64,000 bases of DNA from a virus. Positions 9,679 through 11,451 of the stretch are shown here, piece after piece. Each line of letters begins with the position of its first letter. Within the stretch, counting starts at the first letter, position 1. The stretch is taken from positions 1-64,000 of IMG/VR virus record IMGVR_UViG_3300044295_000092; one strand, 5' to 3'. The position numbers and the translations under genes were made by a program. The notes beneath the pieces were generated by a model. The model was given only the letters and a program-made list of their open reading frames with translations. It ran no database searches and had not been told where the DNA came from.

Positions 9679-10593
9679 ATGGCAATTTCACGCGCTCAGC
9701 TCCTTAAGGAGCTATTACCAGGCCTTAACGCATTATTCGGTTTAGAATATAAACGTTACGGTGAAGAACACAAAGAAATCTACGAAACTGAATCATCAGA
9801 ACGTAGCTTTGAAGAAGAAACAAAACTTTCAGGTTTCTCAGCAGCACCAGTCAAAAACGAAGGCACTGCAATCGCTTATGACAATGCTCAAGAAGCTTGG
9901 ACTGCACGATACAATCATCAAACTATCGCTCTTGGTTTCTCTTTAACAGAAGAAGCTGTAGAAGATAACTTGTATGACACATTATCTGCACGTTACACAA
10001 AAGCTTTAGCAAGAGCTATGGCTTATACAAAACAAGTTAAGGCTGCTGCAGTTCTTAATAATGGTTTCAACACTTCTGGTTCATACAACGGTGGTGATGG
10101 CGTATCATTATTCAACACAGCTCACCCACTTGTTGGTGGCGGTACAAACAGCAACACTCAATCTACAGCTACAGACTTGAACGAAACAGCATTGGAAAAT
10201 GCAGTTATTCAAATTGCAGCTTGGACTGATGAGCGTGGTCTCTTGATCGCTGCTCAACCACGTAAATTAGTTGTTCCACCAGCATTGCAATTCGTTGCAA
10301 CTCGCTTGTTAGAAACTGAACTACGTGTAGCAACAGCTGATAACGACATCAATGCAATTAAGAACAATGGTTCTATCCCAGAAGGTTACACAGTTAACCA
10401 CTTCTTAACAGATAGCAACGCATATTTCTTAACAACTGATGTTCCTAACGGCATGAAACACTTTGAACGTATCCCATTATCAACATCTATGGACGGTGAC
10501 TTTGATACTGGTAACGTACGTTACAAAGCTCGTGAACGTTATAGCTTTGGTTGGTCAGATCCTCTCGGTATGTGGGGTTCACCAGGTGCTTAA
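9679..10593 (+). CDS. Major capsid protein
   Basis: The 304-residue protein has the layout of Mu gpT-like major head subunits of the HK97 fold. It has a short N-terminal helix, EIYETESSERSFEEE near 33-47, an FNTAHPLVGGGTN loop near 149-161, and LVVPPALQFVATRLL near 196-210. There is no long N-terminal delta domain, which agrees with a separate scaffold gene. The strong GGAGAATAGAAC ribosome binding site and the terminator right after the gene (10620-10648) fit high expression. Confidence 0.9.
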   Translation: MAISRAQLLKELLPGLNALFGLEYKRYGEEHKEIYETESSERSFEEETKLSGFSAAPVKNEGTAIAYDNAQEAWTARYNHQTIALGFSLTEEAVEDNLYDTLSARYTKALARAMAYTKQVKAAAVLNNGFNTSGSYNGGDGVSLFNTAHPLVGGGTNSNTQSTATDLNETALENAVIQIAAWTDERGLLIAAQPRKLVVPPALQFVATRLLETELRVATADNDINAIKNNGSIPEGYTVNHFLTDSNAYFLTTDVPNGMKHFERIPLSTSMDGDFDTGNVRYKARERYSFGWSDPLGMWGSPGA

Positions 10594-10619
10594 TTAGCAA
10601 CTGGCTACGTACTACTAAG

Positions 10620-10648
10620 GGGCTTGCTTAAAACGCAGGCCCTTTTTT
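10620..10648 (+). terminator. Intrinsic terminator after the major capsid gene
   Basis: GGGCTTGC (10620-10627) pairs with GCAGGCCC (10635-10642), one G-U pair, around a TTAAAAC loop, followed by six T residues. It separates the capsid transcript from the downstream pqqA unit. Confidence 0.92.
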
Positions 10649-10688: not shown

Positions 10689-10717
10689 TTGACAACTGTA
10701 TACATTGGGTATACAAA
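10689..10717 (+). promoter_or_regulatory. Promoter and operator-like dyad of pqqA
   Basis: A perfect TTGACA (10689-10694) is followed after 17 bp by TACAAA (10712-10717); TATACA 2 bp upstream is an alternative -10 box. A perfect inverted repeat, TGTATAC (10697-10703), 5 bp, GTATACA (10709-10715), covers the spacer and -10 box, as a repressor site would. It lies between the capsid terminator and pqqA, so pqqA has its own regulated start. Confidence 0.75.
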
Positions 10718-10734
10718 AATTTAAGGAGAATATT

Positions 10735-10812
10735 ATGAAAGCATGGACAAAACCAGCAGCAACTGAAATGAGATTTGGCTTTGAAGTTACTATGTACGTG
10801 ATGAATAAGTAA
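10735..10812 (+). CDS. pqqA: PqqA, coenzyme PQQ precursor peptide (25 aa)
   Basis: PqqA is the ribosomally made peptide whose glutamate and tyrosine are cross-linked by PqqE and excised to become pyrroloquinoline quinone. The product shows the family hallmarks: WTKP at residues 4-7, an E-M-R-F-G-F stretch at 11-16, and the core E17-V-T-M-Y21 with E and Y in the E-x3-Y spacing that is cross-linked. Length (25 aa) is typical (22-29). The strong AAGGAG ribosome binding site, own TTGACA promoter and own UUCG terminator make it a complete transcription unit inside the phage head module. No pqqB-E genes are present, so host enzymes must process it. In methylotrophs PQQ serves methanol dehydrogenase. 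Confidence 0.93.
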   Translation: MKAWTKPAATEMRFGFEVTMYVMNK

Positions 10813-10819
10813 TAAATTA

Positions 10820-10839
10820 GGGGCTTCGGCCCCTTTTTT
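10820..10839 (+). terminator. Intrinsic terminator of pqqA (UUCG tetraloop)
   Basis: GGGGC, TTCG, GCCCC, then six T residues. A UUCG-capped GC stem with a T-run 7 bp after the pqqA stop is a canonical terminator and closes the single-gene cassette. Confidence 0.95.
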
Positions 10840-10840
10840 A

Positions 10841-10856: not shown

Positions 10857-10940
10857 AATAATATCAATTTTGGTATTATTTGGGAATCCGGGTTACCCGG
10901 TTTATTAGACTGTCCCGGCAGACGCATATAAGACTAATAA
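10857..10940 (+). promoter_or_regulatory. Structured 5' leader, candidate cis-regulatory RNA
   Basis: Three consecutive stems lie upstream of the gene at 10969: AATAATA (10857-10863) with TATTATT (10874-10880); CCGGG (10888-10892) with CCCGG (10896-10900); TTATTAG (10902-10908) with CTAATAA (10934-10940), the last holding a small CTG/CAG hairpin (10910-10921). The 84-nt block is non-coding and GC-rich in places compared with its surroundings. I cannot match it to a known riboswitch class. Confidence 0.5.
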
Positions 10941-10968: not shown

Positions 10969-11451
10969 ATGTCAAGAACTACTTTTTCGGGCCCAGTCCG
11001 TGCCGGTACTAACCGTTATGCTCCATATCAAAACGTAGGTACTGCTGTTACAACTCAACAAGTTGCTTTTACTTACGATGCAACTCTTACACAAAACGCA
11101 ACATTTTATATCCCAGCAGGTTGCAGAATTATCAATATTTTTGTTGATGTTATTACTGGTTATAACTCAGCTACATCAGCTACTTTAACTATTGGTAAAA
11201 CTTCTGGTGGTACAGAATACGCTTCAGGCGTTAATGCTAAAACAACAGGCCGTACAACACCTACATTTACAACTACACAATTAACTAATATGCAATCAAC
11301 TCCAATTGATGTTGCAGCTGCTAATAGCCAACAAGCATGTTCAGCTATCGTAGTTACAGTTACATCAGTAGGTCAACCAACTGCAGGTACAGGTTTTGTT
11401 ACTGTGCAATACGCTCAATCAGATGATCGTTCAGCATTTGGCCAACAATAA
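10969..11451 (+). CDS. Putative beta-sheet virion protein (160 aa)
   Basis: The protein is threonine/alanine/valine rich with alternating beta-strand pattern and no catalytic motif. It has a GAAGGAAAA ribosome binding site and is followed by a stem-loop at 11461-11479. Composition and place after the capsid gene suggest a capsid surface or head-fibre protein. I do not recognise a named family. Confidence 0.6.
   Translation: MSRTTFSGPVRAGTNRYAPYQNVGTAVTTQQVAFTYDATLTQNATFYIPAGCRIINIFVDVITGYNSATSATLTIGKTSGGTEYASGVNAKTTGRTTPTFTTTQLTNMQSTPIDVAAANSQQACSAIVVTVTSVGQPTAGTGFVTVQYAQSDDRSAFGQQ

Follow-up and report, generated by a model that had tools for sequence, protein, structure and literature searches.

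A solitary pqqA gene with a structured leader beside the capsid gene of an HTVC023P-like phage, and its recurrence among methylophages

A 25-codon open reading frame next to the capsid gene of an environmental phage raises the question of whether a virus can carry a genuine pqqA, the gene for the peptide that is consumed when PQQ is made, and what a phage would gain from the substrate of a pathway whose enzymes it does not encode. The locus lies in a 64,000-nt stretch of DNA (the window; positions 1 to 64,000 of IMG/VR record IMGVR_UViG_3300044295_000092, 66,018 b in full), in which the plus-strand gene occupies positions 10735-10812 (25 codons plus TAA) and encodes MKAWTKPAATEMRFGFEVTMYVMNK. 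The product was matched by both PqqA profiles, by TIGR02107 (NCBIfam) over the full model (1-21) at 40 bits (cut-off 20, E = 2.3e-10) and by PF08042 (Pfam) at 42.6 bits (cut-off 21.1, E = 5.5e-11), and was the sole PqqA match in a profile search of the entire record. It contains GFEVTMY, in which E17 and Y21 form the Glu-x-x-x-Tyr pair of the G-[FLM]-E-V-T-x-Y signature, while W4-T-K-P7 constitutes the W-x-x-P segment at the N-terminus; the conserved R is also present. Glu and Tyr at the E17-Y21 spacing are the pair cross-linked by PqqE. The C-terminal 22 residues, with all signature residues, were identical to those of bacterial PqqA of the Methylophilaceae type (for example L215, from Methylophilus, and L254), the phage peptide being two residues longer at the N-terminus (MKA-W as against M-W). 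A PDB sequence search with the peptide gave no match. No homologue of PqqB, PqqC or PqqE was found in the 64,000-nt window, and the pqqBCDE neighbourhood that is common for pqqA, if not defining, is absent around the phage gene. The initial annotation, which had proposed a gene with the PqqA signature (E17-V-T-M-Y21, WTKP at 4-7) and no other pqq gene, is borne out on both counts, and ORF 10735-10812 is, judged by its sequence, a genuine PqqA, phage-borne and solitary.

The virus itself was HTVC023P-like. Its major capsid protein, encoded by the upstream neighbour of pqqA (9679-10593, plus strand; NF045541 C-terminal match), was 71% identical to that of Planktothrix phage Pag-Yong1 and 64-66% identical to those of DSL-LC04, HTVC023P and HTVC027P. 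The latter three also have a related terminase, but were without a pqqA match in the tblastn search described below, and their listed hosts are SAR11 and a gammaproteobacterium. Besides terminase, the window encodes a portal, another virion protein, an SU10-type adaptor, a DNA polymerase and a helicase; pqqA is flanked on either side by virion genes and has bacterial homologues, as expected of an auxiliary metabolic gene.

From 5' to 3' on the plus strand, the site consists of the capsid stop, a terminator, a leader with a hairpin, AAGGAG, pqqA, a UUCG terminator, a conserved element and the next gene. The capsid-gene terminator is a hairpin plus T-run at 10617-10645 (fold -16.9 kcal/mol, z -4.08), the ribosome binding site AAGGAG lies at 10723-10728, 6 nt 5' of the ATG, and the pqqA terminator, with a UUCG tetraloop plus T-run, was found by a terminator scan at 10819-10840 (hairpin 10819-10834, fold -11.7 kcal/mol), so that these three signals stand as first proposed. 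AGGAG was retained in the aligned close relatives that have pqqA, and L350, L359 and L049 have, at the corresponding position 3' of pqqA, hairpins that resemble terminators but differ in sequence. On its right side the insertion site is delimited by a conserved 24-base element, TTTATTAGACTGTCCCGGCAGACG (10901-10924), which occurs once in the window, precedes the gene after the capsid gene in relatives both with and without pqqA (for example L123, L125 and L350) and may be a late promoter or a site of processing. The downstream neighbour, taken from the list of open reading frames, encodes 160 aa (10969-11451). The terminator upstream implies that the cassette needs its own promoter. A TTGACA hexamer at 10689-10694 had been proposed as that promoter; the hexamer is present, but a consensus sigma-70 scan found no plus-strand promoter between 10640 and 10735, and TTGACA was not conserved among close relatives. 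Rfam gave no match in the window.

The leader also contains a perfect dyad, TGTATACATTGGGTATACA (10697-10715, plus strand), which occurs once in the window and folds into a 7-bp stem with a 5-nt loop (-5.4 kcal/mol, z -3.13; z -2.85 for the leader). It had been described as operator-like; the dyad as such exists, but its variation and its occurrence speak against an operator. Among relatives the stem changed in sequence and kept its pairing, columns 9-20 being C-G, G-C or U-A and columns 6-23 G-C, A-U or G-U. The covariation score was higher than in any of 500 shuffles or any slid control in an alignment of sequences picked for having dyads, and the main weight is therefore borne by z-score tests on unselected leaders. 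In these, a z below -1.5 was reached by 66 of the 187 distinct leaders of phage pqqA (mean z -1.04) and by 10 of the 12 in the window's group. Leaders of bacterial pqqA reached it in 13 of 125 cases, and other leaders taken from these phage loci in 54 of 400 (p = 3e-9 for phage pqqA leaders against the latter). The phage gene thus differs from bacterial pqqA in being solitary and in having a structured leader, bacterial pqqA leaders as a group being without structure. Because the stem covaries and phage pqqA leaders are enriched in hairpins, the dyad is better read as a phage-specific RNA hairpin than as a DNA operator, and by analogy with known 5'-hairpins the stem-loop probably stabilises or tunes the short pqqA transcript.

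The gene was not confined to this virus. When the peptide was searched by tblastn against 50,697 phage records, 12 matched, nine of them records of cultured methylophages (Venkman, P19250A, MEP301, MEP401, MEP402 and four of Melnitz). The remaining three were ctXG6705, a podovirus from the environment, and two that bear the name Acinetobacter phage MD-2021a. A query of the enterobacterial PqqA type recovered the same records, and beyond the nine methylophage records no genuine host-assigned pqqA record was present among the 50,697. The MD-2021a record that was inspected (CAKLQF020000010) was rejected as phage, having annotated pqqB, pqqC and pqqD beside pqqA; this pqqABCD operon adjoins polyphosphate kinase, and the record appears to be mislabelled host DNA. 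The PqqA ORFs of the cultured methylophages were 77-96% identical to that of the window over 22 residues and likewise each solitary, whereas both the genome types and the position of pqqA differed between phages: MEP401 and MEP402 belong to the Zobellviridae and Melnitz to the Kyanoviridae, Venkman shares its terminase with ctXG6705, and the terminases of MEP301 and P19250A are distant. A DNA match to Venkman (89% over 80 nt) was rejected as proof of transfer, since mainly conserved codons were covered. No gene was annotated at the pqqA locus of Venkman, P19250A, MEP301, MEP401 or MEP402, and the annotation of Melnitz EXVC044M and ctXG6705 has an antisense hypothetical ORF over it; with no more than 23-25 codons, this metabolic gene was too short for routine gene calling to pick up. 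No mention of a phage pqqA was found in the genome papers on the cultured methylophages other than P19250A.

Searches of IMG/VR with degenerate DNA patterns yielded more than 100 contigs, many viral contigs being fragments, with pqqA and without pqqB, pqqC or pqqE. The GFEVTMY pattern gave at least 119 stretches, and all 120 ORFs listed (window included) had W-x-x-P at the right distance, which was not required by the pattern; a second pattern, from which M before the Tyr was excluded, gave at least 120 matches, nearly all of them PqqA-like. The one exception to the absence of pqqB, pqqC and pqqE from the fetched viral loci was a PqqB fragment of 31 residues in the enterobacterial L425, where it lies at the edge of the contig. 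Among 118 bacterial pqqA loci, pqqB was present in 54, pqqC in 46 and pqqE in 31. No PqqE scored over the cut-off in 50 whole pqqA-positive virus records, and a full-length PQQ methanol/ethanol dehydrogenase was found in one of 49 (L044, 608 bits against a cut-off of 480), so that everything else must be supplied by the host. The L044 record (72,356 b) encodes a phage tail assembly chaperone, and its dehydrogenase is listed together with L457. Lineages were sorted by best match to seven reference genomes, a rough procedure in which many assignments consisted of one protein and 71 loci were left unassigned.

The host of the window phage is very probably a Methylophilaceae-like methylotroph, since the 22 C-terminal residues are those of Methylophilaceae PqqA and every pqqA-bearing phage in culture has a host among the Methylophilales. 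The Methylophilaceae, which include OM43, Methylopumilus and their relatives, are abundant in the sea and in lakes, where they oxidise methanol. With a probability of roughly 0.7, we consider the gene to be a genuine pqqA that was acquired by a phage of such methylotrophs and selected as a substrate-only auxiliary metabolic gene. Extra PqqA would be made by the phage during infection, its Glu17 and Tyr21 would be cross-linked by host PqqD/PqqE, and host enzymes would complete PQQ from it; the additional PQQ would keep periplasmic PQQ-dependent methanol dehydrogenases active, and the infected cell would go on drawing carbon and energy from its main source during phage replication. Extra PqqA is a plausible way to raise PQQ because hosts themselves hold multiple copies, two to five in each of five genomes with pqqA of the Methylophilaceae type (three in one genome of 1.3 Mb) and five, three of them isolated, in a published methylotroph, and because PqqA peptide added to cell extract gave PQQ with 70-80% conversion (PMC9851590). 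Solitary extra copies, then, occur in host bacteria as well as in phages, and two Nitrosomonadales MAGs (L242 and L253) contain two tandem copies about 200 bases apart. Raising PQQ would be the best-supported function of phage pqqA, and the pairing of methanol dehydrogenase with pqqA, in the Lake Baikal virus VP_266 considered below and, as an independent case, in L044, fits this reading.

Two other functions were weighed against it. That a PQQ dehydrogenase accompanies pqqA so rarely in virus records could mean that the cross-linked peptide or PQQ is put to another use, as a signal, an antioxidant or the substrate of another radical-SAM enzyme; this appears unlikely, as the genuine matches with a known host are all methylotroph phages, which points to methanol oxidation. 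Alternatively, phage PqqA might act as a decoy that competes for PqqE/PqqD or for the processing protease and slows PQQ synthesis and methanol oxidation. Such a role would be in keeping with a substrate carried without its enzymes, which many copies would titrate whatever the outcome, but a peptide that keeps all substrate residues and shares 22 residues without change with host PqqA would be expected to act as a productive substrate, the hosts multiply pqqA themselves, and methanol dehydrogenase is encoded together with pqqA in one phage. To compete with host PqqA is accordingly a weaker option than raising PQQ, and a distinctly improbable one.

How the gene came to lie at this site, and whether it is of any benefit there, was addressed with relatives gathered by a capsid-based scan, which made the comparison independent of pqqA. 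Those with a capsid protein more than 90% identical (L350, L337, L359, L035, L049/L122 and L095) all had pqqA right after the capsid gene, while L123, L125 and L185 (capsid 86-89%) were without it and had an empty site, made up of the capsid stop, one terminator and the next gene. In a capsid tree of 91 rows, the 11 pqqA-positive rows, window included, formed one clade with no negative member (support 96/88, the bootstrap not fully settled), and the presence of pqqA over the tree took five changes, four of them forced by well-supported branches. No PqqA was found anywhere in 31 pqqA-negative sister records, several above 60 kb, with the same model that detects the window's copy. The gene is a terminator-bounded insertion that is absent from related phages and was inherited through one clade. 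The description as a moron-like cassette holds as regards its own terminator and its absence from the same site in close relatives; the proposed TTGACA promoter is less secure.

Other ORFs occupy the same site in L095, L124, L126, L350 and L359, and some of them resemble HNH/endonuclease VII homing enzymes as judged by eye, for which reason the site 3' of the capsid gene is probably an insertion hot spot. A cassette might hitch-hike in such a place without benefit to the phage, but this is very unlikely here: pqqA was retained in 11 of 11 clade members, it lies at different positions in dissimilar phages, and its copies are intact under constraint, with low pN/pS. The ratio was 0.165 in the window's group (12 sequences) and 0.29 in the first pattern scan when only codons not fixed by the pattern were counted, W1, P4 and R10 being invariant in 107 distinct sequences; values of 0.20-0.28 for the whole collection were set aside in favour of these, which are without search-pattern bias. 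Judged by these ratios, the phage PqqA peptide was shown to be kept by purifying selection. Host contamination or chimeric assembly, conceivable in that host DNA can occur in IMG/VR records and an MD-2021a record has a bacterial pqqABCD operon, is a negligible explanation given virion genes on either side in the window, a capsid gene adjoining pqqA in several independent contigs, and pqqA in complete genomes of cultured phages.

The initial annotation knew of no described phage pqqA, and in this it was mistaken. The gene was reported in 2020 from VP_266, a T4-like predicted Methylophilaceae virus that also carries methanol dehydrogenase, and was proposed to raise PQQ for that enzyme (PMC7678222); a study of sediment likewise lists a viral pqqA (PMC13188868). 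Window and VP_266 are alike in encoding PqqA in a predicted Methylophilaceae-type virus and in the functional idea, but VP_266 has a T4-like genome with methanol dehydrogenase, and the window phage is HTVC023P-like, with a pqqA that stands by itself next to the capsid gene and has a terminator of its own and a hairpin in its leader. Within the open-access papers searched, no account was found of pqqA in cultured methylophages, of its recurrence across dissimilar types, of the empty sites and the clade, or of the hairpin in the leader, and the new part appears to be how widespread and overlooked phage pqqA is. Should pqqA prove common among methylophages, control of methanol oxidation by viruses would be much more frequent than the one published case implies, and raising the methanol oxidation of the host may be a widespread phage strategy that was missed by gene callers. 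A broader proposal, to which we give even odds, is that pqqA is a near-core, convergently acquired and systematically overlooked methylophage gene, one that provides nothing but the ribosomally made precursor of a cofactor and by which the host's PQQ dose is set via substrate and structured leader, and that the temperate enterobacterial phages inserting at pqqU, described below, have independently come to use the same means. The gene may also help to indicate the hosts of uncultured methylophages, and its role is directly testable in the cultured phage-host pairs Venkman/H5P1 and MEP401/FZCC0133; the published medium for H5P1 contains 1 nM PQQ (PMC9004378), an amount that could mask an effect of the gene.

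Viral PqqA of another type, ending in GFEVTCYI, was observed in L335, L336, L345, L346, L360, L414, L415 and L428, and suggests phages of further PQQ-making hosts. A separate set of IMG/VR proviruses (L344, L349, L367, L372, L374, L384, L392, L423, L439 and L444) was of the enterobacterial lambdoid type, with a solitary pqqA near one end; the PqqA of L374 is MWKKPEFVDLRLGLEVTLYISNR (44 bits). The arrangement was not found in complete E. coli genomes. In these proviruses pqqA adjoins the gene for the PQQ importer, pqqU/yncD, present as a 5' fragment (PDB 6v81, E = 8e-21; NF041535), and lysogenic conversion in which PQQ import is traded for PQQ synthesis is possible. An integrase was located at the opposite end in three of the eight enterobacterial provirus records tested.
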